From assembly GCA_900546775.1 (NCBI GenBank), contig UREM01000030.1, forward strand, positions 1 through 22,161: a stretch of 22,161 nucleotides of DNA, written 5' to 3'. Origin of the DNA: an uncultured Collinsella sp. (lineage in GTDB: Bacteria; Actinomycetota; Coriobacteriia; Coriobacteriales; Coriobacteriaceae). The notes under the pieces are model-generated. The model did not search any database, was not told the origin of the DNA, and saw only the letters and a program-made list of their open reading frames with translations. The translations under genes were made by a program, and so were the position numbers. Shown one piece after another: positions 87-10,327 of the stretch (position 1 is the stretch's first letter; each line of letters opens with the position of its first letter).

Positions 87-806
87 TTACATCACCATGA
101 CGTAACGGCTACCCACGTAGTACTGCTTACCCATCAGGACCGGCTCGCCATTGGGGCCGATAAAGCCGGCACGCAGATTGAGCAGTGGATCGTGCGGAGC
201 AATGCCCAACTCGGCCGCTTGCTCGGCGTTAGCGCGAACGGCCTCGACCGTACGGTAGCCAACCGAGACAATCGGCGTTCCGCCAACACGCTCGACCTCG
301 GCAAAAATCGACTTGTCCTCAAGATCGGCCGTCAACAGCTCACGGTATGTATCAAACGGCACAAAGATGTTTTCCTCAAAGATGGGCTCGCCGTCGGCCG
401 TACGCACGCGCTTAATGTGCAGTAGCAGCGCGTCCTTCTGCAGGCCAAAGAACTCCATCTCGTTTTGACGTGCCGGCACAATCTGGCGATCGACCACGTG
501 TGCACCCGCCTTCATGTCATTGTCGGCACACAGCGCGGTAAACGTCTGCAGCGTCGAGGCGTGGAACTGGCGGTTGATGTGCGGCGTGGAGACAAAGGTG
601 CCGCGGCCCTGCTGCTTAACCAGGTAGCCATCGGAGCACAGCTCCTCAACGGCGCGACGCACCGTAATGCGGCTTACCTCGTACTGCTCGGCAAGCTCAA
701 GCTCGGACGGGATACGCTCCTTGGGTGCATAAACACCTTTCTCGATCGCATCCTTGATTTCGTCGTAAATCTGCTGGTAAAGTGGTGCATTTTTGGGTGC
801 GGGCAT
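87..806 (-). CDS. GntR/HutC-family transcriptional regulator (UTRA domain)
   Basis: This 239-residue protein has the layout of HutC-type GntR regulators. An N-terminal winged helix-turn-helix (about residues 8-75) contains RIPSELELAEQYEVSRITVR and the wing GRGTFV. A UTRA effector-binding domain follows (about 95-235). Such proteins usually bind a phosphorylated sugar or amino-sugar derivative and leave DNA when it is present. The start is ATG with only a weak AAGAG ribosome site. Its upstream region carries a motif that recurs before the PTS IIAB gene and before eamA, so I infer that it controls both and itself. It lies at the far end of the locus, beyond the YitT and HAD genes. The effector is unknown; a glycated amino acid 6-phosphate is a reasonable guess. 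Confidence 0.9.
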   Translation of the reverse strand: MPAPKNAPLYQQIYDEIKDAIEKGVYAPKERIPSELELAEQYEVSRITVRRAVEELCSDGYLVKQQGRGTFVSTPHINRQFHASTLQTFTALCADNDMKAGAHVVDRQIVPARQNEMEFFGLQKDALLLHIKRVRTADGEPIFEENIFVPFDTYRELLTADLEDKSIFAEVERVGGTPIVSVGYRTVEAVRANAEQAAELGIAPHDPLLNLRAGFIGPNGEPVLMGKQYYVGSRYVMVM

Positions 807-842
807 ATCTGATCACTCTTATCAAAATAGCGAAATAACTAA

Positions 843-865
843 TACGTATATAACGTCTTTTTATA
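843..865. promoter_or_regulatory. Candidate operator upstream of the first gntR (site A)
   Basis: The AT-rich 104-bp gap between the YitT stop and this gntR contains TATAACGTCTT at 849-859. That is identical over 11 bases to the left part of the palindrome at 6876-6889. It overlaps ACGTATATAACGT (844-856), which is itself nearly palindromic. The position about 40 bases before the gntR ATG fits autoregulation. Binding is inferred from motif sharing only. Confidence 0.5.
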
Positions 866-910
866 TGTTATCTCAGTTTGATAAAACGATACACCACATA
901 CAGCAAATCC

Positions 911-1918
911 TTACTTGCCGTCGTCCTGCTGCAGACTGTCCTGCTCGCTGAGGCGCGCCTGCCTGCTGGCCATGCGCGCGGGCTTGTCGGGATCGGGTAC
1001 GGCCGTGGGCATGGGCTCGTCGACATGACCGCCCCACCAGCCGCCCACAAAGTTAAGCGTGTGGAACACATTGATCACGGCGCCGGGATCAATGTCGCAC
1101 ACCAACTTGATGATGTCCTGGCTCTCATAGGTCGAGACAACGGTGTGCAGCAGGTACATCTTTTCGCGGCTGTATCCGCCAACGACCTCGGCGCAGCTGA
1201 TGCCGTGCTGAAAATGGTCGATATAGGCGGTCATGACCTCGTCGGCCTTGCGCGTCGTGATCTGCAGCGTTACGCGGTCATAGCGGCGGTAGAAGCTGTC
1301 GATGGTCTTGGTCGAAATAAACTGGAACACGATGGAGTACGCCGCGTTGTCCCAGCCAAACATAAAGCCAAAGATCGCCAGGATAAAGCAGTTAAAACCA
1401 AAGATGACGCCCCAGATGGTCTTGCCCGTGTGGTTGGAGACCCACAACGCGATAAAGTCGGTACCGCCGGTGGATGCGCCGGACTTAAGCGCGATGGCGG
1501 CGCCCAGGCCCGAGACCACGCCGCCAAAGATGATGAGCATAATCTTGTCGCCCAAAAACGGCGCAAAGTGAAAGATGTTAAGGAACAGCGACGAGAGCGC
1601 AACCTGCATCATCGAGAAGATGACGAAGCGCTTGCTAATGCCGCTCCAGCATAGGAGCGCCACGGGGATGTTGAGCGCGAGCATACCGAGCGAGATGTCG
1701 ATATGAACGCCACCCAGCGAGGTAACGCGATCGAGCAGGACCGCGACGCCGGTAAGACCGCTCGGAAGCAGGTCGGCGGGTTGAATGAACGCCTGGATCA
1801 GGAATGTCTGGAGAACGGCAGAAATGGTGACCGCCACGGCGGTGATGGCACGGCGGACGATGGTAAGGCGGCCGAGCACGAGCACGCGGTCCGTGAGCTG
1901 ATCGATGGCGTTCGCCAC
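911..1918 (-). CDS. YitT family membrane protein (DUF161 plus DUF2179)
   Basis: This 335-residue protein has about five hydrophobic segments between residues 20 and 205, with family-like stretches LLPSGLTGVAVLLDRV (51-65) and SGASTGGTDFIALWV (146-160). A soluble C-terminal DUF2179 domain follows (about 215-290), then a polar tail of roughly 35 residues. YitT proteins are widespread in Gram-positives and their transport role is unsettled. The start is GTG, chosen because AAAGGAG lies 5 bases upstream and the reading is open from there. A possible -10 box (TACAAT, 1964-1969 on the minus strand) has only a distant TTGAAG as partner, so the promoter is uncertain. It sits between two locus genes but shows no obvious functional tie to them. 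Confidence 0.88.
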   Translation of the reverse strand: MANAIDQLTDRVLVLGRLTIVRRAITAVAVTISAVLQTFLIQAFIQPADLLPSGLTGVAVLLDRVTSLGGVHIDISLGMLALNIPVALLCWSGISKRFVIFSMMQVALSSLFLNIFHFAPFLGDKIMLIIFGGVVSGLGAAIALKSGASTGGTDFIALWVSNHTGKTIWGVIFGFNCFILAIFGFMFGWDNAAYSIVFQFISTKTIDSFYRRYDRVTLQITTRKADEVMTAYIDHFQHGISCAEVVGGYSREKMYLLHTVVSTYESQDIIKLVCDIDPGAVINVFHTLNFVGGWWGGHVDEPMPTAVPDPDKPARMASRQARLSEQDSLQQDDGK

Positions 1919-2054
1919 GTAGGCTCCTTTCGAAGGCAGATGTAGTTGTGGGGCGTGGCCGCGATTGTAGCATGGAGCATGCGGGGGCGCTTCAATTCAC
2001 CCTCTCTCGACAACCAAAACGGGACCGGTAACCCCACAACCAAAGGCCCAAATT

Positions 2055-2178
2055 CTAAGTGAGTAGACTTTTCGCAACCTGCCGAGCACAGCCAATAACA
2101 GCCACCTCTGTGACCTGCGGTTTTACTAAGGCAGAAACGCTTTGTGCTCGGCATGCGCCAAAAAGTCTACTCACTTAG
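2055..2178. repeat. 124-bp palindromic intergenic element, copy 1
   Basis: The ends are perfect 18-bp inverted repeats, ctaagtgagtagactttt (2055-2072) and its complement (2161-2178). A second inner pair, gccgagcaca (2081-2090) and tgtgctcggc (2143-2152), is also perfect. Between them lies a loop of about 50 bases. A near-identical copy in the same orientation is at 10479-10601. No coding potential and no obvious target-site duplication flank it. With the AT-rich remainder of 1919-2273 it makes up the only notable content of this 355-bp gap. Confidence 0.88.
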
Positions 2179-2222
2179 TCTGAGTCGAAGCCAAACTGAT
2201 CCAAATTGAAGCCAAAATGAGC

Positions 2223-2270
2223 CAATCCGCCGCGATAAATGCGCGAATCGGCACTTCTCGCGGCGGATTG
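2223..2270 (-). terminator. Hairpin just after the HAD gene, possible terminator
   Basis: A perfect 13-bp stem, caatccgccgcga (2223-2235) with tcgcggcggattg (2258-2270), encloses a 22-base loop. It begins three bases after the HAD stop codon on the minus strand. The following bases read GCTCATTTTGG, a weak U-tract. It could be a terminator or an mRNA-stabilising 3' hairpin. Confidence 0.5.
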
Positions 2271-2273
2271 ACG

Positions 2274-2903
2274 CTACAAAGCGGCCAGAATGTCGGTCAG
2301 ATTATCGATAACGGCATCGGCTCGCGATTGATCGAGGTTGACGCCCTCATGCGGACGCAGTGCCAGGACGCGGGCGCCGGAGCGCTTGCCAGCCTCGATG
2401 CCCAACGGCGAGTCCTCGATAACCAGGCACTCGGCGGGGTCAACGCCCAGCGCCTCCATGGCACGCAGGTAGATCTCGGGGTCGGGCTTAAATGCACTGC
2501 ACTCGTGACCGCTGATGGTGTAGTCCAGCACGTCGGTGATACCGGCAATCTCCACCAGCTCGTCAATGAGCTCGCGATAGGACGAGCTCGCGATGGCACA
2601 TTTCATGCCGCGCTTGTGCAGCTCACGCATCACCGGCTCCGTCTGCTCGTTGAGTAGCTCGGCATACGGAACGGGATGGTCCGGGCTGTAGACCTGCTTG
2701 TACTCCACGCGCAGGCGCTCGCGCAGCTCAACATCGTCGGGCACCAGCGACTTCCAAATGGCAGGCTCGTTAGACCCCGAAAGATCGGGGATCTCGTCAA
2801 AATGGAACCCCTTCTCTTCCATAAACGCCACGCGACGGCGGTTGTAGAACCACTCGGTATCGACCAGCACGCCGTCCATGTCAAACAGCACTGCCTTAAT
2901 CAT
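2274..2903 (-). CDS. HAD superfamily phosphatase / beta-phosphoglucomutase-like
   Basis: This 209-residue protein has the HAD subfamily IA signature. Motif I is DMDGV with Asp8 as nucleophile and Asp10. Motif II is the Ser at 106 (CAIASSS). Motif III is Lys139 (FKPDP), and motif IV is VIEDS (Glu163/Asp164). The helical cap lies between about residues 15 and 80, as in sugar-phosphate phosphatases and beta-phosphoglucomutases. The start is the ATG at 2903, because GGGAGGAG lies 6 bases upstream; the ATG two codons earlier overlaps that site. A strong terminator separates it from the deglycase gene upstream, so it is probably a separate transcript or depends on read-through. Its substrate could be a hexose phosphate from the locus, but the sequence does not show this. 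Confidence 0.9.
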   Translation of the reverse strand: MIKAVLFDMDGVLVDTEWFYNRRRVAFMEEKGFHFDEIPDLSGSNEPAIWKSLVPDDVELRERLRVEYKQVYSPDHPVPYAELLNEQTEPVMRELHKRGMKCAIASSSYRELIDELVEIAGITDVLDYTISGHECSAFKPDPEIYLRAMEALGVDPAECLVIEDSPLGIEAGKRSGARVLALRPHEGVNLDQSRADAVIDNLTDILAAL

Positions 2904-2918
2904 ACGCATCTCCTCCCA

Positions 2919-2961
2919 CCTGCCGAAAAGGGACAGGTTTATTTTGGTAGGTTTTATCTGG
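2919..2961 (+). repeat. 43-bp repeat, copy 1
   Basis: It begins cctgccgaaaagggacaggt and ends ggttttatctgg. The same 43-bp unit occurs at 10695-10737 in the same orientation and at 10840-10882 inverted. This copy lies in the 5' leader of the HAD gene, ending about 8 bases before its ribosome-binding site. Confidence 0.8.
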
Positions 2962-2997
2962 TGTTTTGCGACGCGACAGACACGCCCTCCCCAAAGC

Positions 2998-3029
2998 AAA
3001 AAAGGGGACGGGGCAAAACCCCATCCCCT
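2998..3029 (-). terminator. Rho-independent terminator after the first deglycase gene
   Basis: On the minus strand an 11-bp stem (AGGGGATGGGG / CCCCGTCCCCT, one G·U pair) with loop UUUUG is followed directly by six U. It lies 34 bases beyond the stop codon of the SIS gene at 3063 and closes the PTS-deglycase transcript before the HAD gene. Confidence 0.85.
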
Positions 3030-3062
3030 CTCAATCAACCCGTAAGGTCTACTTACTTGTGA

Positions 3063-4046
3063 TTAGTAGGAAAGCTTCCACATGTAGCGACGCATGGTCA
3101 GCGGGTGCTGACGGGCCTCGGCGATCTGGTTGCCGTACTCGCGCATAACGGCGAGGTGCAGCAGCGGGTTGAAGTAGGTGACGACGCTTGCCGGCACGGC
3201 GTCGGCCAGACCGTAGTCCTTGGAGTCGATCAGAGCGACCTTGGCGCCCATGCGCTTAAGGAAGGTGAGGGCGCGGGCGTCCATCGGACGGGTGGCACCA
3301 TCGGACATGAAGAAGACGTAGGGCTTACCCTCGGTGGAAACCTCGAACGGGCCGTGGAAGTACTCGCCGGTGTTGTAGGCGGCGGCGTCGATCCACTGCA
3401 TCTCGGTGAACAGGAAGGCGGCGTGAGAATAAGCCATCTTCTCGGAGGCACCAGAGGCCATGAAGTAGATCATCTTGTCGTCCTTGAAGTCCTGGGCGAA
3501 CTGCTTGGCGAGGCCCTTGGCGGACTGAGCGGCGTTCTCGCAGAGCTCGAAGACGTTGGTGAGGCCGGTGATCATGTCCTCGTAGTGGTCATAGCCCTCG
3601 GTCTGCTGAAGGATCTCGAGAGCAAGAGCGATGGCGTAGCCAGGCTTCTCGCACTTGGCAGCGTAGTTGGCATGGAAGCCGTGAACGATGACGTGGTCGG
3701 CGTCGACGGTCAGAGCGGAGCCGGCCTTGTTGGTGAGGGAGACGACCGGGCAGTTGTGCTTCTTGGCGGTCTTGTTGGCCTCGACGGTCTCGGGCGTGGA
3801 GCCACCGAGGGAGCAGGTGATCACGAAGGTGTGCTCGTTGACCCAGGAAGGCGTGTCGTAGTTGAACTCGTTAGCGGTGAAAATCTGAACGTTCAGCTTG
3901 TCCGTGTTGTTGGCCAGGAAGTACTTGGCAGGGTAAAGGTCGGACATGGAAGCACCGCAGCCGACGAAGGCGACGCTGTGGATCTCGTGGTTGGACAGGA
4001 CGTCAGCGACGATCTGCTTAGGGAGGTTAAGGTCGATCTCGTACAT
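3063..4046 (-). CDS. SIS-domain sugar-amine deglycase (FraB/FrlB/GfrF-like)
   Basis: This 327-residue protein has two SIS domains (about 15-160 and 180-310). It resembles deglycases that split Amadori-type amino acid 6-phosphates into hexose 6-phosphate and free amino acid. Visible landmarks are the sugar-phosphate loops GCGASMSD (29-36) and SLGGSTPET (79-87), then TEMQW with Glu215 and TGEYFHGP with His231. The 16-residue Glu-to-His spacing matches the catalytic pair described for Salmonella FraB (Glu214/His230, from memory). The C-terminus RRYMWKLSY is also typical. The ATG at 4046 is chosen because AAAGGA lies 9 bases upstream; an ATG three codons earlier overlaps that site. It is last in the PTS operon, before a terminator. 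The substrate could be fructoselysine-6-P, glucoselysine-6-P, fructose-asparagine-6-P or a related compound. Confidence 0.88.
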   Translation of the reverse strand: MYEIDLNLPKQIVADVLSNHEIHSVAFVGCGASMSDLYPAKYFLANNTDKLNVQIFTANEFNYDTPSWVNEHTFVITCSLGGSTPETVEANKTAKKHNCPVVSLTNKAGSALTVDADHVIVHGFHANYAAKCEKPGYAIALALEILQQTEGYDHYEDMITGLTNVFELCENAAQSAKGLAKQFAQDFKDDKMIYFMASGASEKMAYSHAAFLFTEMQWIDAAAYNTGEYFHGPFEVSTEGKPYVFFMSDGATRPMDARALTFLKRMGAKVALIDSKDYGLADAVPASVVTYFNPLLHLAVMREYGNQIAEARQHPLTMRRYMWKLSY

Positions 4047-4136
4047 CTGACACATTCCTTTCGATTTTTTGCGGCGCCACATTGCCGGGCGCTCGCAGGG
4101 TTACCGTGGTTTGGACCGAGTCGCCGGCCCGTTGAG

Positions 4137-4169
4137 GATGTGTCAAAGGAACTGTCCCTTTGACACATC
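4137..4169. other. Intercistronic hairpin between IID and deglycase genes
   Basis: A perfect 13-bp stem, gatgtgtcaaagg (4137-4149) with cctttgacacatc (4157-4169), has a 7-base loop. No U-tract follows on either strand. In the transcript it lies about 90 bases before the deglycase start, so it may tune expression between the PTS and the deglycase or mark a processing site. Confidence 0.7.
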
Positions 4170-4180
4170 TAGGGATGGAA

Positions 4181-4211
4181 GCCTGCCTGGGGTATGGGAT
4201 GCCAGGCAGGC
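4181..4211. other. Second intercistronic hairpin after IID
   Basis: A perfect 10-bp stem, gcctgcctgg (4181-4190) with ccaggcaggc (4202-4211), has an 11-base loop. It lies 35 bases after the IID stop on the minus strand. It lacks a U-tract, so full termination is unlikely. With the hairpin at 4137-4169 it fills most of the 199-bp gap. Confidence 0.65.
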
Positions 4212-4245
4212 CCCCGGGGGAAAGCGGTTAGGCGCTTGGTCGCGA

Positions 4246-5079
4246 CTAGGCCAGGATGCCGGCCGCGGAGAGGGCGATGCCGCCCACGATGGCGATCACG
4301 AGAAGCCAACCGGTGTTGACGTTCTTCTTGATGAGCCAGTACATAAGGCCAGTGAGGCCAAGGGAGATCATCTGGGGCATCATACCGTCCAGGATGTCCT
4401 GGATAACGACGGTGCCCTCAGCGAACTGCAGCGGGGTGGTGGCGCCGATCAGCGTAGCGATCATGCCGCCCACGGACATAAGACCTACGATGCCGCAGAC
4501 ATACATGAGCTTTTCCATGAGGTCGCCGCCCTGAAGCTTGCTCAGGTACTCGTGGCCGCCCTGATAGCCCATCTTGGCTGCGAACCAAGTGATCAGCACA
4601 GAGGGGACGATGGAGATGAGCATGGCCAGGATCGGGCCCATGATGGAGCCCTGCTGAGCCAGCTGAACGCCCAGGCCAAAGGCGATAACGCGGATGGTGC
4701 CCTGGAAGAGGGAGTCACCGATGCCGGAAAGCGGACCCATGAGGGAGGTCTTGACCGCGTTGATCGAATCGGGATCGAAGTTCTCGGGATCCTTGGCGTA
4801 CTCCTCCTCCATGGAGGCGGCGAGGCCTAGGACAAAAGCGCTCGTCTGCGGGGTGCAGTTGTAGAACGCCATGTGACGATGGTAAGCCTCTTTCTTAGCA
4901 GCGAGCTGCTTGGGGTCAGACTCGTCGGGGTAGAGGCGGTCGAGCGTGGGGACCATGCCGTAGAGGAAGCCCATGTTCATCTGACGCTCGTAGTTCCAAG
5001 AGGCCTGGATGGCCCAGGAGCGCCAGAAGAACTGGCTGACCTTCTTGTTCAGGGACACGTCCTTGGTTGCGGTTGCCAT
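4246..5079 (-). CDS. PTS mannose-family membrane subunit IID
   Basis: This 277-residue protein matches the EIID subunit of mannose/fructose/sorbose PTS permeases. The N-terminal amphipathic part reads FFWRSWAIQASWNYERQMNMGF, with a typical cytoplasmic section to about residue 95. The family stretch SLMGPLSGIGDSLFQGTIR lies near 110-130. Several hydrophobic segments follow, ending in a membrane helix at the C-terminus. With IIC it forms the sugar channel in the cytoplasmic membrane. The ATG at 5079 follows AAGGAGG with about 8 bases between them. It starts only 13 bases after the IIC stop, so the two are co-transcribed and probably translationally linked. Confidence 0.93.
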   Translation of the reverse strand: MATATKDVSLNKKVSQFFWRSWAIQASWNYERQMNMGFLYGMVPTLDRLYPDESDPKQLAAKKEAYHRHMAFYNCTPQTSAFVLGLAASMEEEYAKDPENFDPDSINAVKTSLMGPLSGIGDSLFQGTIRVIAFGLGVQLAQQGSIMGPILAMLISIVPSVLITWFAAKMGYQGGHEYLSKLQGGDLMEKLMYVCGIVGLMSVGGMIATLIGATTPLQFAEGTVVIQDILDGMMPQMISLGLTGLMYWLIKKNVNTGWLLVIAIVGGIALSAAGILA

Positions 5080-5092
5080 AGTGTGTTCCTCC

Positions 5093-5887
5093 TTAGTCTT
5101 CGTCGTCTTCGAGCGGATCATAGTCGGAATCGACACCGGCAGCAGCATGGGAACCGTTGAACTTGAAGCCCATGAAGACGATAGCCAGGCACACACCGAT
5201 CAGAGCGACCGCGATGACGGACAGGTTGAGGTAGGCGGCGAGCAGGAAACCGATGAACAGGAACGGGGTCATACCCTTCTTGATCATCATGGTGAGCAGC
5301 AGGGCCAGACCGTAGGCGGTCATGATCTTGGTCGAGACGTTCAGACCAACGGACAGCCACTCGGGAACCATGTTGACGATGGCTTGGACCAGGTCGGTAC
5401 CGACAAAGACGGCCAGGAAGATCGGCAGGAAGTACATGATGGCGTACAGACCGGAGCCGGCGCAGATGTGCATGCGGTAGGCGGTCTTGAACTTGCCGTT
5501 ATCAATCGCGCTATCGGCCACATGGGTGAGGGCGGCGATGATGGAACGGAACACGATGCCGAGGAGCTGACCCAGGACGGCGACCGGGATGGCGATCGTC
5601 ATGGCGGTCTCGGCGGAAGCATCGGTCAGGCACGCAAAGGAAGCGGCCACGATGCCGCCCAGGACCATATCGGGCGGAACGGCGGCGCCGACCTGCACCA
5701 GGCCCATGGACACGAGCTCGACGGCGGCACCGACGGCAAGGCCGGTGGGCACATCGCCCAGCAGCAGACCGACGAGCGTAGCGCCAACGAGGGGCTGCTC
5801 GAAGTTAAGACGACCGAGCAGGCGGGAGTCCCACATGCAGAACACGCCGACGAGGCCGACGAGCACCGCACTGATGAACGTATTCAT
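5093..5887 (-). CDS. PTS mannose-family membrane subunit IIC
   Basis: This 264-residue, strongly hydrophobic protein fits the EIIC subunit of the mannose-family PTS. The N-terminus has GRLNFEQPLVGATLVGLLLGD, followed by AVGAAVELVSMGLVQVGAAVPPD (about 50-75), both typical of the family. The C-terminus is an acidic tail (YDPLEDDED). AAGGAGAAGG precedes the ATG at 5887. It lies 36 bases after the IIAB gene and 13 before IID, giving the usual IIAB-IIC-IID order. Substrate choice in this family depends mostly on IIC, IID and IIB and cannot be read from the sequence alone. Confidence 0.93.
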   Translation of the reverse strand: MNTFISAVLVGLVGVFCMWDSRLLGRLNFEQPLVGATLVGLLLGDVPTGLAVGAAVELVSMGLVQVGAAVPPDMVLGGIVAASFACLTDASAETAMTIAIPVAVLGQLLGIVFRSIIAALTHVADSAIDNGKFKTAYRMHICAGSGLYAIMYFLPIFLAVFVGTDLVQAIVNMVPEWLSVGLNVSTKIMTAYGLALLLTMMIKKGMTPFLFIGFLLAAYLNLSVIAVALIGVCLAIVFMGFKFNGSHAAAGVDSDYDPLEDDED

Positions 5888-5923
5888 ACCCTTCTCCTTT
5901 CAGTCAGGCAAAAGCCTGGTTGA

Positions 5924-6847
5924 TTACAGCTTGGCGTCGATGTCGACGCTCTGATACGTAGGGGTCTGCTGGACATAGAGCTTAATGCCCATGTCGAGCA
6001 GTTGGTTGACGTCGGCCTTCTGGGTGGCGTCGAGGAAGACGGAGCTGTCCTTGCCGCCGATCTGATCGGCACCGTCGTGGTTGGCGGTGGCGCCCAGGTT
6101 GATGGCGTCGAGCTTGTAGCCCTGGCAGAACTGCAGCATCTCGGCCGTGTTGCCAAAGACGAACATGACGCGCTCGCCGAGGGTGTTGAGCTTGTCCATC
6201 TTGGCGAGGGCACGCTCGACGGTAAAGACGTTCAGGCGCACGCCCTGGGGCTTGGCAAGCTTGAGAGCGCCCTTCTTGATGTCATCGTTGGCGGCAGCGT
6301 TGTCGACGACGATGATGCGCTCGGCCTGAACCTTGGTGGTCCAGGTAAAGACGACCTGACCGTGCAGCAGACGGTAGTCAAGACGTGCGAGGACGATCTT
6401 GGCGGGACCGGAGCTGTGACGGGGCGCCTTAGCCTTCTTGGCGGGAGCCGCGGCAGCCTCGACCGGTGCGTTGGGGTTGGTCAGACCGGTGCGGGCCTCG
6501 TTGATGAGGGCCGCGAGCTCGGCACCCTTGACGGGGGCGGGGCTCATAGCGAGCGTCAGTGCCAGCGGAATGTTGAAACCGCTGATCACCGTGAATGCCG
6601 CACCGTTGCGGGAAAGCTCGACCATGCTGTTGTTGACCGAGCTGCCGAGCATATCGGTCAGCACATAGACGGTGTCGTCCGCGTTGAACGTGGCGATCAT
6701 GGCGTCCACCTTGTTGGTGATGGGCTCCTTGTCGTCACGAGCAAGCGACACGACGTGGACGTTCGACACGTCGCCGAGAACCATCTCGAGCGTGTCTTTG
6801 GCGCCTGCGGCCAGGCCGCCATGAGATGCGAGAATGATCTGATTCAT
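5924..6847 (-). CDS. PTS mannose-family fused IIA-IIB protein
   Basis: This 307-residue cytoplasmic protein joins two phosphocarriers. Residues 1-125 are EIIA (EIIA-man fold) with the phosphorylated His9 in ILASHGGLA. Residues 126-147 are an Ala/Pro/Lys-rich linker. Residues 148-307 are EIIB with the phosphorylated His162 in RLDYRLLHGQVVFTW. Phosphate would pass HPr to His9 to His162 to the incoming sugar. The ATG at 6847 has a very strong AGGAGGAGG site 4-5 bases upstream. It is the first gene of the PTS transcript. A perfect TATAAT -10 box overlapping a palindromic operator lies just upstream, so it probably has its own regulated promoter. Confidence 0.94.
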   Translation of the reverse strand: MNQIILASHGGLAAGAKDTLEMVLGDVSNVHVVSLARDDKEPITNKVDAMIATFNADDTVYVLTDMLGSSVNNSMVELSRNGAAFTVISGFNIPLALTLAMSPAPVKGAELAALINEARTGLTNPNAPVEAAAAPAKKAKAPRHSSGPAKIVLARLDYRLLHGQVVFTWTTKVQAERIIVVDNAAANDDIKKGALKLAKPQGVRLNVFTVERALAKMDKLNTLGERVMFVFGNTAEMLQFCQGYKLDAINLGATANHDGADQIGGKDSSVFLDATQKADVNQLLDMGIKLYVQQTPTYQSVDIDAKL

Positions 6848-6873
6848 CTTGCCTCCTCCTTTTCGTTATGGTC

Positions 6874-6889
6874 ATTATAACGTCTTATA
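6874..6889 (-). promoter_or_regulatory. PTS promoter -10 box overlapped by palindromic operator (site B)
   Basis: On the minus strand TATAAT occupies 6879-6874. It overlaps the exact palindrome TATAA-CGTC-TTATA (6876-6889). Transcription would start about 20 bases before the IIAB ATG. No good -35 box is seen 16-18 bases upstream, which suggests activator help. An operator on the -10 box fits repression by a GntR protein. Related motifs occur at 849-859 and 8154-8169. Confidence 0.6.
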
Positions 6890-6917
6890 CGTTGCGGATA
6901 TTGCTAATTAGTATAAA

Positions 6918-6952
6918 GACCGTTCGCGGGTGAAAATCGACCGTTGACGGGT
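6918..6952. promoter_or_regulatory. Direct repeats upstream of the PTS promoter
   Basis: gaccgttcgcgggt (6918-6931) and gaccgttgacgggt (6939-6952) are direct repeats 21 bases apart, two helical turns. They lie roughly 50-85 bases upstream of the inferred PTS start site. This spacing suits a dimeric or tandem activator, which would explain the missing -35 box. The rest of the 183-bp gap after eamA has only a weak GC-rich hairpin near 6969-7008. Confidence 0.45.
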
Positions 6953-7030
6953 TTAACGTACTTGAAACGTTGGGGCTGGGCAGGCCGGCACTGGCGGGAT
7001 AACCCCAAGTCGGACCCTGCGCGCAATCCC

Positions 7031-8113
7031 CTATCGCACGAAGTACCAGGGGCTTTCCTGCACGGTGGGCTCCAGCGCGATGCCGGTGCGTTCCTTAAAC
7101 AGATCCATGTCCTGCGTTTTCTCCGTCCACCACGCGTTGGGCTTAAAGGTCATGCTCTCAGCGACATGACCGACAAATACACTGTTGCGCAGCTTGGAGA
7201 AGTCGGTGTTCATAATCAGGATGGACATGAGCACCAGCACAATACCCAGGACCTTGATCGCGCCGGCGGACTCGGCATAGACACCAATGCCCACCAGTAC
7301 GGTGACGACCGTCTCGAAAGACATTACGACGGGAACTTTCGATGTCTCGAGCCCCATGGACAGACCCTGCATATATAAGATGTAAGCCACGGCTGTGGGG
7401 ATGAGTCCAAAGCCAAGGAACAGCAGCAGCAGCTGTGGCGACATTGCCGCGGCGACATCCGGCCACGGAGCCGCGATAGCCGCCATAACCGCACCGCCAA
7501 AAACAAGGCCCCAAAACGTGACAGCCAGCGGGTGGACCGTCTTGGTTGCTATCCGGCTAAACACCGCGAGCGACGCCCCACAAAAGCCTGCAATCACGCC
7601 CGACGTGACGCCCCAAACCGAAAAATGGAAACCGGAAAGGTCGCCATTAGTTACTGCAAGTACACAGCCCCCTATGTTAAAAGCGATGGCAACGAGCTTG
7701 TTGGGGGTCACGTCCTCGCGATAAAGCACGCGGCCGAGCACGACGCCAAACACCGGCGAGGTATAGAGCAGCACCGAGGCCGTGGACATGCCCACCTCGC
7801 CCATACACTCGTAATAGCAAGTGTTGGCGGCGGCCAAACCGACGATACCGACAAGCGCGCAGGAAACAAGCTCTTTAGGGCTTGCCTTGAACAGGGCCAG
7901 CGGACCCTGAGCCACGGTAGACCCCTCACCCGAACGGCAGCCCATAAACATCAGGACCGGCGCCAAGATAAGCGCTCCGACCAACAAGCGAAAGGCAGCC
8001 ATACTCTGGGACGTAACGCCCATGGCCGAGATGCCGTTTACAAAGATTCCGATGCTGCCCCACATAAGCGCGGCGATCAGCACCAGCACATAGCCCAGAT
8101 TGCTTTTCTTCAA
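7031..8113 (-). CDS. EamA (DMT) family transporter
   Basis: This 360-residue protein has about ten hydrophobic helices in two EamA repeats (about residues 6-140 and 155-290), as in RhaT/YdcZ/RarD-type drug and metabolite transporters. The first repeat opens with VLIAALMWGSIGIFVNGIS; the second includes FGLIPTAVAYILYMQGLSMG. A polar C-terminal tail of about 60 residues is longer than usual. I chose a TTG start at 8113 because GAGGAGG lies 5 bases upstream, while the GTG at 8149 has no ribosome site and adds only a polar stretch. It sits between the second deglycase and the PTS genes. Since the PTS probably imports the substrate, this carrier may export the released amino acid or take up a related compound. 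That role is inference. Confidence 0.88.
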   Translation of the reverse strand: MKKSNLGYVLVLIAALMWGSIGIFVNGISAMGVTSQSMAAFRLLVGALILAPVLMFMGCRSGEGSTVAQGPLALFKASPKELVSCALVGIVGLAAANTCYYECMGEVGMSTASVLLYTSPVFGVVLGRVLYREDVTPNKLVAIAFNIGGCVLAVTNGDLSGFHFSVWGVTSGVIAGFCGASLAVFSRIATKTVHPLAVTFWGLVFGGAVMAAIAAPWPDVAAAMSPQLLLLFLGFGLIPTAVAYILYMQGLSMGLETSKVPVVMSFETVVTVLVGIGVYAESAGAIKVLGIVLVLMSILIMNTDFSKLRNSVFVGHVAESMTFKPNAWWTEKTQDMDLFKERTGIALEPTVQESPWYFVR

Positions 8114-8153
8114 CGCAGCCTCCTCGGTATTGTTTCCAATATGTTTCACACTA

Positions 8154-8181
8154 CGTTATAGTCGTTATATACATTTTTCAA
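8154..8181 (-). promoter_or_regulatory. Candidate eamA promoter with operator (site C)
   Basis: On the minus strand TATAACGACTATAACG (8169-8154) matches the PTS operator region in 12 of 16 bases. A TTGAAA (8181-8176) lies 15 bases before TATAAC (8160-8155), a short but possible promoter spacing. It stands about 40 bases before the TTG start of eamA. Confidence 0.45.
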
Positions 8182-8267
8182 GGCACAAATCGGCAAACGG
8201 GAAATCTCTAGACAAAGGGAGTGTCCCGCCAGCCACGGTATCGTCGATGTTTTGGCAATGTCAGCGA

Positions 8268-8366
8268 AAACCCGCCAGAGCGAGCAAGGTGCCTTGAAGT
8301 GAGGCGGCATTGACCTTCTGGTCATGCCGCCGAAGTTGAAAGGCAGATTGCCGCTCTGGCGGGTTT
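8268..8366. other. Large nested stem structure after the second deglycase gene
   Basis: A perfect 15-bp outer stem pairs aaacccgccagagcg (8268-8282) with cgctctggcgggttt (8352-8366). Inside, ggcggca-t-tgacc (8303-8315) pairs with ggtca-tgccgcc (8320-8331) around a 4-base loop with one bulge. On the minus strand the distal arm ends GGCGGGTTTT, so it may act as a weak terminator. It overlaps the 86-bp repeat and occupies much of the 293-bp gap between deglycase and eamA. Confidence 0.65.
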
Positions 8367-8407
8367 GCAGCGTCGGCCGGTTACGGCGTTTGGTAAAACG
8401 CCGTAAC
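8322..8407. repeat. 86-bp intergenic repeat, copy 2
   Basis: It aligns gap-free with 1-86. Its terminal hairpin (8380-8407) is GTTACGGCGTTT / AAACGCCGTAAC with the same GGTA loop. Compared with copy 1 the stem differs at two adjacent positions, and both changes are compensated on the other arm. The last base is also the first base of the deglycase stop codon read on the minus strand. Confidence 0.75.
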
Positions 8408-9399
8408 TAATAATCAAGCTTCCACATGTAGCGGCGCGTCATGTAGTCCTTGTGGGTGACGGCAGAGAGCGCGCGCATGTACACGTTGTTGAGGATCGGG
8501 GCAAAGATCAGGTGGTTGAAGTACTCGCTCACGCTGTCCTTGATGTCGTTGAGGCCGAGCTCCTTGGCGTCGAGCTGGTAGACGCGCTCGCCACCGTACT
8601 GATTGACAAAACGGATGCCGCGCTCGTCGTTGCAGCGGCTGCGGCCGACGCTGATGAGCTGGAACAGCGAGGTACGCTTGTCCAGAATCTCGAAGGGGCC
8701 GTGGAAGAAGTCGCAGGTGTTGATGGTGCAGGAGTCGATCTGCAGCATCTCCTGCACGTTGCAGATGCTAAAGACGTAGGCGGCACCAAAGAGCGGGCCC
8801 TGGGCCATGACGTTGATGCAAGGCTTGTCGGCGTTCTGCTCGGCCCACTTAGCAGCGAGCGGACGGGTGTACTCGACGGCCTTGCGATAGATGGGGTCGA
8901 CCAAGTCGAATGCGGCCATAGCGGTCTCGTACTCGGCATAGCCCTCGGTCTGCTGCGTGAGCTCCATGGCGATCATGGTCACGACGGCGGAGTTGGTGCG
9001 GCCCATGCAGGACTCGTCGACGGCCAAGCTGTCGTACTGGATCTTGTAGTCGCAGACCTCGGTGAGGCCGGACTCGTCAACATAGATGGCGATGGTGCTG
9101 GCGCCGTGGTCCTTGGCAACCTGAGCGGCGACGATGGTCTCCTTGGTGCCGCGCATGGACACGACGACGGCCAGGGTGTTCTCGTTGACGTAGGCCGGGG
9201 TGGCGTGCACAAACTCGTTGCTGGTGTAGCTGGAGCTCACGACCTGCGTGGCCTCGTGCTCCATAAAGTACTGGGCAGGATAGTTACCACCGTTAGATCC
9301 GCCGGCGCCGATCCACACAACGCGCTTGATGCCGCCCTTGTCTGCCTTGTCAGCCAAAACCTGGGAGACGACATCCTTAACCTGTTCCTGAGTAGTCAT
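8407..9399 (-). CDS. Second SIS-domain deglycase-like protein
   Basis: This 330-residue paralogue of the protein at 3063-4046 has the same two-SIS layout and C-terminus (RRYMWKLDY). The catalytic pair is kept: Glu217 (VQEML) and His233 (FFHGP), 16 residues apart. Two features differ. The first phosphate loop reads SMRGTKET and appears one residue shorter than SLGGSTPET. The segment before the catalytic His is TCDFFHGP instead of TGEYFHGP, with Gly to Cys and Glu to Asp. These suggest another substrate, as with the separate GfrE and GfrF deglycases. The ATG at 9399 follows GAAAGG by 10 bases; earlier in-frame starts have no ribosome site. It is transcribed away from the second gntR, which probably controls it. 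Confidence 0.87.
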   Translation of the reverse strand: MTTQEQVKDVVSQVLADKADKGGIKRVVWIGAGGSNGGNYPAQYFMEHEATQVVSSSYTSNEFVHATPAYVNENTLAVVVSMRGTKETIVAAQVAKDHGASTIAIYVDESGLTEVCDYKIQYDSLAVDESCMGRTNSAVVTMIAMELTQQTEGYAEYETAMAAFDLVDPIYRKAVEYTRPLAAKWAEQNADKPCINVMAQGPLFGAAYVFSICNVQEMLQIDSCTINTCDFFHGPFEILDKRTSLFQLISVGRSRCNDERGIRFVNQYGGERVYQLDAKELGLNDIKDSVSEYFNHLIFAPILNNVYMRALSAVTHKDYMTRRYMWKLDY

Positions 9400-9436
9400 C
9401 GTGCATCGGCCTTTCTTCTCATTTGATGCTCTCGAT

Positions 9437-9596
9437 GGCATACAAGTTACATACATGTTTTGGTTATGTCGACTAGTTGTATGCTATATTTGTCTTAGAA
9501 ATTTTGCTGGTAAAGTTTTCGGCAATCTATTACCAGCGGTTTTGTTGTCATGTTGGATACATGCTTGGTTCGGTAAGCATATAAGTTAGATACAGG
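9437..9596. promoter_or_regulatory. Divergent promoter and operator region, deglycase / gntR
   Basis: This 205-bp AT-rich gap has three related 13-mers: agttacatacatg (9445-9457), tgttggatacatg (9551-9563) and agttagatacagg (9584-9596). It also has an inverted pair, gcatacaa (9438-9445) with ttgtatgc (9478-9485), and a perfect 8-bp inverted repeat, gctggtaa (9506-9513) with ttaccagc (9530-9537). A plausible rightward promoter is TTGCTG (9504-9509), 18 bases, TATTAC (9528-9533), with two 13-mers downstream of it. No strong leftward promoter is evident. The adjacent GntR protein is the obvious binder. Confidence 0.55.
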
Positions 9597-9604
9597 TTAT
9601 TCGC

Positions 9605-10327
9605 ATGAGCACTTCGTCAAAAAAGAACTTGGCCCAATACGAGCGTCTGGCGGGTACGCTGCGTGACCGCATCGCCGCCGGCACCTACGCACGCGGAGAC
9701 AAGCTGCCGTCCGAGATGGAGCTCATGGACGAATCGGGGCTGTCGCGCAGCACCGTGCGCCACGCGCTTAAGGTGTTAGTTGACGAGGGCCTGGTGCGCA
9801 CCGAGCGCGGACGTGGCACCTTTGTGGCCGACACGCCCGCGCTCCACGAGAACAACCTGGTGTTTTCGAGCTATACCAAGCAGGTCGAAGGCCGGGGCAT
9901 GAAGCCCACCACGCGCACGGTGGACTCGGGCTTTGCCAAAGCAATGGGCAGCGTGGCCAAGTTCTTTGACGCTACCGTGGGCAGCAAGCTTGTCAAACTT
10001 GTCCGCCTGCGTTACCTGGACGATGCGCCACTGTGCCTGGAGACCACCTATCTACCACCGAGCTTTGAAGCACTCATCGATCGCGATATCAACGGTTCGC
10101 TCTACGCCACGCTGCGCCAAGAATTCCATCGCGCGCCGGCACAGGGGCATAAGACCTTTGAGGTGTGCTACGCCTCGCAAAACGAGGCGTTTTTGCTCAA
10201 CGTTGAGCGCGGGCAGGCACTGATCCTTATCACTGACTACGTCTACGACACCGACGGCCGCCCGCTGCACATCTCCAAGCGCATCCAACGCACCGACCGC
10301 GCCAAATACACCGAGCCCATCGGCTAG
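9605..10327 (+). CDS. Second GntR/HutC-family regulator (UTRA domain)
   Basis: This 240-residue protein has a winged helix-turn-helix (about 10-78; KLPSEMELMDESGLSRSTVR and wing GRGTFV), then a UTRA effector domain (about 95-235). The ATG at 9605 has only a weak AGG-type ribosome site, which suits a low-abundance repressor. It is the only gene of this locus read on the plus strand and diverges from the second deglycase gene, a layout usual for a local regulator. Its own upstream region lacks the motif shared by the first gntR, PTS and eamA, so the two regulators probably bind different sites. A phosphorylated glycated amino acid is a possible effector, by analogy with FrlR. Confidence 0.9.
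   Translation: MSTSSKKNLAQYERLAGTLRDRIAAGTYARGDKLPSEMELMDESGLSRSTVRHALKVLVDEGLVRTERGRGTFVADTPALHENNLVFSSYTKQVEGRGMKPTTRTVDSGFAKAMGSVAKFFDATVGSKLVKLVRLRYLDDAPLCLETTYLPPSFEALIDRDINGSLYATLRQEFHRAPAQGHKTFEVCYASQNEAFLLNVERGQALILITDYVYDTDGRPLHISKRIQRTDRAKYTEPIG

Follow-up and report, generated by a model that had tools for sequence, protein, structure and literature searches.

A candidate glycated-amine utilisation cassette in Collinsella: a mannose-family phosphotransferase system with two deglycase-like SIS proteins

Described systems and the Collinsella cassette

A ten-gene cassette (positions 87-10327) was analyzed on contig UREM01000030.1 of an uncultured Collinsella sp. (GenBank assembly GCA_900546775.1, positions 1 to 22,161; this whole 22,161-nucleotide stretch is referred to as the window). 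In order along the contig, the genes encode a GntR regulator (GntR1), a YitT-family membrane protein, a HAD hydrolase, a SIS protein (SIS1), the IID, IIC and fused IIA-IIB (IIAB) parts of a phosphotransferase system (PTS), an EamA carrier, a second SIS protein (SIS2) and a second GntR regulator (GntR2). Collinsella is a common inhabitant of the human gut, and glycated amines of the kind considered here form in heated food. Degradation of dietary glycation products has been reported for C. intestinalis (cited in PMC10255453). The cassette probably serves the use of such compounds, which would be imported by the PTS and deglycated by SIS1 and SIS2, and it is a defined candidate for part of this breakdown.

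Several described systems share parts of this arrangement. The Salmonella fra locus has a deglycase of the same larger clade and a GntR-type regulator (FraR; PMC4072780); unlike the cassette, it uses a transporter (FraA) and a kinase (FraD) in place of a PTS, encodes one SIS protein (FraB) and includes an asparaginase (FraE). At Salmonella STM0577-72, a SIS protein (STM0572) adjoins a PTS as it does here, but that PTS is, in the account of PMC4987338, uncharacterised and sigma54-dependent, with a LevR-like regulator (STM0571). Salmonella gfrABCDEF likewise couples a mannose-family PTS to two deglycases (PMC12675984, PMC4987338), although its deglycase fell in another clade of our tree and its regulator, GfrR, is described as a LevR-type sigma54 activator (PMC4987338). 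Enterococcus operons of the order IIA-IIB-IIC-IID-SIS-LevR-HAD (L096, L039-L041) share the PTS, the HAD and a SIS1 relative (52-53%), whereas they carry one SIS gene and a LevR-type regulator and have no adjoining EamA or GntR. B. subtilis FrlB (3eua, BSU32610) and the kinase-type loci of Bacillota have a related deglycase, with a FrlD-type kinase and other transporters replacing the PTS. The seven-gene fructoselysine PTS operon of F. prausnitzii, which was likened by description and not by sequence, combines a PTS and a deglycase with a regulator unlike that of Salmonella and one unmatched gene, and differs in having one SIS protein (as reported in PMC12136445).

The first-pass annotation of the window had regarded GntR regulators in place of a LevR-type activator, together with EamA, as a different build of the pathway. 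That description was too broad for the regulators, as the GntR family is already represented in fra (fraR; PMC4072780), in a Pantoea frl locus, in a plasmid fra locus and at two PTS-SIS loci of E. faecium plasmids (L099 8004-13064 and L103 4293-9400, with one or two GntR genes, and a HAD also in L099). EamA is, on gene content, an addition found in Collinsella and its near relatives, present only alongside GntR2. The kind of each part and PTS-deglycase operons as such are already known; as far as the literature was searched, the new elements are two enzymes of different subclades near FraB served by one PTS, the exchange of PTS and kinase, and the split between two regulators. That search returned no paper identifiable as describing the Collinsella cassette, and a 2019 study of C. 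intestinalis (Cell Host Microbe) may overlap with it.

Deglycase clades and proposed phosphorylating import

Gene content, fold, clade membership, PTS/kinase exchange and conserved operator-like motifs were computed. In the resulting tree, 3eua (B. subtilis FrlB), FraB, STM0572, SIS1 and SIS2 formed one group (support 99/94), and SIS1 and SIS2 stood apart from E. coli GlmS, AgaS, the GfrF clade and E. coli FrlB (long outgroup branches were flagged, and NagB-II was left out). A grouping of both proteins with GlmS or AgaS, which the first-pass annotation had named as contrary evidence, was not seen. Each protein is 40-41% identical to FraB, and the nearest solved structure for both is 3fkj (STM0572). 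Deglycase identity is thus supported for both SIS proteins by their relatedness.

Neighbourhoods of SIS1 relatives were compared at 41 Bacillota and 38 Coriobacteriia loci by using matches of at least 100 bits within 8 kb. A FrlD-type kinase without a PTS was found at 28 of the Bacillota loci, a mannose-type PTS without a kinase at eight, neither at five (three of these, L050, L061 and L075, are contigs of < 9 kb) and both at none. All 38 Coriobacteriia loci had PTS genes (IIC or IID), and none had the kinase; Pfam likewise assigned no FrlD/FraD-type PfkB kinase among the ten cassette genes. Kinase-type neighbourhoods held FraB relatives, an asparaginase (L045), FrlC-type epimerases and ABC transporters (the last named by eye). 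With the exception of L046, the PTS-linked SIS1 relatives included in the tree made up one clade of eight rows (99/100), which suggests a single switch from kinase to PTS.

This exchange points to the PTS as the source of the 6-phosphate on which SIS1 would act, and it is the strongest evidence for a glycated amine being phosphorylated before cleavage. In the mechanism that we infer, one or more glycated amines would be imported by the PTS (IIAB-IIC-IID) and phosphorylated on the sugar in the same step, whereas related loci use a transporter and a FrlD-type kinase for these two tasks; cleavage of the 6-phosphofructosamine by SIS1 would then yield glucose 6-phosphate and free amino acid or amine. 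Beside one deglycase clade, the exchange offers a clean case of a swapped import and phosphorylation step.

Several results pull in the other direction. The exclusion of PTS and kinase has a Fisher p of 1.3e-5, a value that presumes independent loci, which is not the case here. When the flank is widened to 10 kb, a PTS and a kinase are both present at L046, and the Gfr-clade locus L090 has a PTS together with a kinase-like gene (120 bits), so the exclusion is not general. The model of SIS1 is weak at residues 211-240. FraB Glu214 and His230, which we take to be catalytic, are retained in SIS1 and SIS2 (numbering checked on plasmid FraB; the title of 9otu names a FraB E214A mutant), as the first-pass annotation had noted from their spacing; the pair is, however, also 16 residues apart in E. 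coli GlmS and FrlB, so it is not diagnostic of deglycases.

An amino-sugar locus, in which the SIS proteins would be glucosamine- or galactosamine-phosphate isomerases or deaminases, fits the fact that mannose-family PTSs often carry amino sugars, and a glmS model was the top NCBIfam match of SIS1 (86.5 bits, against a cut-off of 418). The tree, the structural ranking and the exchange with FrlD-type kinases all count against this alternative, and we regard it as highly improbable.

The first-pass annotation had also linked the locus to gfr. Of its proposal that the locus imports and cleaves glycated compounds, the deglycase clade and phosphorylating import are supported, and kinship with gfr is not. 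The structure of GfrF (2a3n, which is STM4540 by its structure title and the locus map in PMC4987338) fell in a separate 100/100 clade with one E. faecium and two Collinsella loci (L107, L090). Its scores were about 52-53 bits to SIS1 and SIS2 and 235 bits to an E. faecium locus protein. Structure 3fkj had been considered as GfrF and was dropped, being STM0572 (structure title; locus map in PMC4987338). The IIC and IID of the window scored 292 and 396 bits against Enterococcus L096, versus 120-153 and 188-227 bits against L103, L107 and L090, and no LevR-type sigma54 activator was present among the ten assigned genes (87-10327). These results leave it very unlikely that the cassette is the Collinsella gfr operon, with SIS1 and SIS2 acting as GfrF and GfrE on fructoselysine and glucoselysine 6-phosphates, even though it shares with Salmonella gfrABCDEF the trait of a mannose-family PTS and two SIS proteins (as outlined in PMC12675984 and PMC4987338). 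Fructoselysine could be a substrate even without orthology, and the comparison was made with GfrF, without a Salmonella GfrE sequence.

Other Collinsella loci appear to be the more natural places for fructoselysine and glucoselysine. L107 (6077-14034, genome G001) encodes two GntR, a SIS protein, IIA, IIB, IIC, IID, an epimerase and a further SIS protein, and belongs to the Gfr clade; L090 (11314-20000, G002) has three SIS proteins of the Gfr clade or alike, two GntR, a PTS and the kinase-like gene. Two kinase-type loci, L105 (2567-10268) and L106 (2383-9235), hold genes for GntR, YfcC, an amidohydrolase (identified by eye), a FrlC-like epimerase, SIS and a PfkB kinase and are candidate fructoselysine loci. 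The cassette is separate from the Gfr-clade and kinase-type loci of the genus. Gut studies that score gfrABCD by orthology group, as PMC10134792 does, may therefore pool PTS loci with deglycases of different clades.

Conservation of the cassette and the place of SIS2

The survey covered 197 Coriobacteriales genomes at a match threshold of E ≤ 1e-90, and the lists for SIS1 and SIS2 were compared by eye. SIS1 had matches in 46 genomes and SIS2 in 39. SIS1 lay on the same contig as SIS2, at most 7 kb away, in 38 of the 39 SIS2 genomes, so the pairing is more than chance; in the lone exception (G155), SIS2 is 2-3 kb from the contig start. HAD was found at ≥ 100 bits within 5 kb of SIS1 at 36 of 38 Coriobacteriia loci (all except L023 and L077). 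EamA and GntR2 occurred together at 22 of 31 scored loci and were both missing at the other nine, two of which (L028 and L030) show only 1.1-1.3 kb before SIS2; seven of the 38 loci were left unscored because SIS2 was missing or at a contig edge. The cassette is conserved and is probably a glycated-amine locus.

SIS2 forms its own clade, sister to FraB/STM0572 and with members in Lachnospiraceae. The phosphate-binding loop is intact in SIS1. In all eight aligned rows of the SIS2 clade, this loop is one residue short (SxxG-T), N-x-C-[DE] stands at the position of FraB HSGE, and the conserved C-terminal HPL is absent. Against a role in cleavage, the shortened loop means that SIS2 may be inactive or different. 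SIS1 could then be the sole working deglycase, and SIS2 a paralogue that is either inactive or regulatory, sensing the phosphorylated compound or tuning SIS1. The missing loop residue and HPL fit such a paralogue, as do the eight of 46 SIS1 genomes without a SIS2 match, although in two of these (G032 and G034) SIS1 sits 4-6 kb from the contig start. Glu and His are nevertheless retained in all eight rows, the clade is old and extends to Lachnospiraceae, and in L057 (Lachnospiraceae) SIS2 stands beside epimerase and kinase genes; we consider the paralogue explanation unlikely. Under the preferred reading of two deglycases, SIS2 would take a second compound or configuration that enters via the same PTS. 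For enzymologists, SIS2 offers a relative of FraB in which the phosphate loop is altered.

The nearest relatives of HAD are beta-phosphoglucomutase and phosphatase proteins. Loss of FraB makes 6-phosphofructose-aspartate toxic, according to PMC12755824, which makes it a reasonable guess that HAD is a phosphatase relieving such sugar-phosphate stress. EamA, and perhaps YitT, would export a product. Against solved chains, EamA had no useful relative (one irrelevant match, E 0.0092). YitT, a possible exporter, was found within 5 kb of SIS1 relatives at eight of 41 Bacillota and 21 of 38 Coriobacteriia loci, and three cases outside Collinsella were confirmed with Pfam. YitT-family genes near deglycase genes were thus seen in two phyla (window 911-1918; L056 12041-12892; L070 11028-11993; L036 5486-6355).

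Regulators, operator-like sites and gene layout

A 15-base GntR1-type motif, RACRTHTATRAYGWC, was drawn by eye from the IIAB and GntR1 upstream regions, so only the EamA and SIS2 upstream regions are semi-independent tests of it. In the window, it had seven matches with ≤ 2 mismatches (0.79 expected), two of them inside genes. Upstream regions from 42 sources were scanned at ≤ 1 mismatch (chance expectation ≤ 0.1 each). Sites were found before EamA (24/25), GntR1 (26/40), IIAB (11/38) and SIS2 (7/34), versus SIS1 (0/42), HAD (0/33), IID (0/18) and IIC (2/41); the two IIC matches are in L027 and L077, where IIC heads its group. Before SIS2, the site occurred in none of 23 sources with GntR2 and in seven of 11 without it. 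A perfect SIS2 site in L028 overlaps the match start and was excluded from the count.

Repeats in the GntR2-SIS2 gap fit a second pattern, TGTATNTAACTTNTATGC, which matches exactly at two positions of the window against 0.05 expected; these same sites had served to draw up the pattern. The best sites in the GntR2-SIS2 gap of L018, L022, L025, L026 and L034 had 3, 3, 2, 3 and 4 mismatches, respectively; conservation across these five loci is suggestive only. The two motifs fit a split of the cassette into a putative GntR1-type set (EamA, PTS, GntR1) and a putative GntR2-type set (SIS2). In the absence of an inducer, GntR1 would probably repress its own gene as well as EamA and the PTS operon, and GntR2 would separately control SIS2 in Collinsella. 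The simplest reading of the SIS2 counts is that SIS2, formerly under GntR1, came under GntR2 when that regulator and EamA entered the cassette.

This regulatory assignment is weakened at several points. The IIAB site departs from the motif at 2-3 positions in the C. aerofaciens complex and at 4-5 in L028, L030, L036, L037 and L078. A site with ≤ 1 mismatch is missing from 14 of the 40 GntR1 upstream regions, ten of which are from Coriobacteriia outside the complex (2-5 mismatches). The loci are also not independent, as those of C. aerofaciens are close kin and lineages are far fewer than loci. A short palindrome, CGTTATAACG, had been tried as the GntR1 operator and was rejected; its near match before IIAB was confined to the C. 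aerofaciens complex (23 sources scanned), and the longer degenerate motif replaced it.

Taken jointly, the parts could make up a fuller scheme, which we put forward as tentative and rather doubtful as a whole. SIS2 would be a distinct deglycase subfamily with a rebuilt phosphate loop, acting on another class of glycated amine than SIS1; one PTS would serve two enzymes and two GntR sensors, with SIS2 handed from GntR1 to GntR2; and HAD, EamA and YitT would serve as an overflow route, removing phosphate from surplus glycated compound and exporting it.

Coordinates are collected in Table 1. Domains were assigned with Pfam, with every match above the curated cut-off, and likely starts were set by the first well-aligned Met and by how long relatives usually are (327 aa for SIS1, 330 aa for SIS2). 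Every gene listed in the first-pass annotation (fused IIA-IIB, IIC, IID, two SIS, EamA and two GntR) was recovered. Its range of 3063-10327 was too narrow: the genes named there are real, GntR1 lies outside it, and HAD and YitT had been omitted though they are cassette members. The IIA, IIB, IIC and IID domains were all found, which identifies a mannose-family PTS, and the phosphorylation sites of IIAB are His9 and His162 by motif.

Table 1 Genes and putative regulatory sites of the cassette in the window (ORF, open reading frame)
Feature	Position	Strand	Remarks
GntR1, GntR/UTRA regulator	87-806	-	Pfam GntR + UTRA; kept at cassette end in Collinsella and Atopobiaceae
Putative GntR1-type site before GntR1	843-857	+	1 mismatch to RACRTHTATRAYGWC
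YitT-family membrane protein with DUF2179	911-1918	-	Pfam
HAD hydrolase, beta-phosphoglucomutase/phosphatase type	2274-2903	-	ORF opens 3038; start ~2903 likely
SIS1, predicted deglycase of FraB/FrlB kind	3063-4046	-	Pfam SIS; ORF opens 4082
PTS IID	4246-5079	-	Pfam EIID-AGA; domain ORF 4246-5196
PTS IIC	5093-5887	-	Pfam EII-Sor
PTS IIA-IIB fusion	5924-6847	-	Pfam EIIA-man + PTSIIB_sorb
Putative weak GntR1-type site before IIAB	6879-6893	-	2 mismatches
EamA carrier	7031-8149	-	Pfam EamA, two stretches
Two overlapping putative GntR1-type sites before EamA	8152-8175	-	8161-8175, 1 mismatch; 8152-8166, 2 mismatches
SIS2, diverged deglycase-like protein	8407-9399	-	Pfam SIS; ORF opens 9456; sister clade of FraB/STM0572
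Putative GntR2-type operator-like repeat near SIS2	9438-9455	-	Fits TGTATNTAACTTNTATGC
Third, weaker repeat copy	9549-9566	-	78%
Putative GntR2-type operator-like repeat near GntR2	9577-9594	-	Fits TGTATNTAACTTNTATGC
GntR2, GntR/UTRA regulator	9605-10327	+	Pfam GntR + UTRA; divergent from SIS2

Intergenic gaps are 13 and 36 bases within the PTS and 104-355 bases elsewhere, and several transcription units are therefore likely. SIS1 of the window shares 98-99% identity with its counterparts in L001-L003, which places the window in the Collinsella aerofaciens complex; 35% of the sampled words of the window are common to the nearest genome compared. Beyond the window start, a GntR gene (~47% like GntR1) and a SIS3 gene form a pair a few kb past GntR1 (L001 16344-18212; G001:C1 ~2.024-2.026 Mb). 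Searches of the window for Rfam families (gathering threshold) and for tRNAs returned no matches, and promoter-like (4 vs 3.7 shuffled) and terminator-like sites (7 vs 9.3 shuffled) were at shuffle level. Between YitT and HAD, an inverted repeat (2055-2178) has 36-base arms that are 86% complementary and 52 bases apart, and the 199-base gap between IID and SIS1 contains a hairpin with 16-base arms (4137-4169, 94%).

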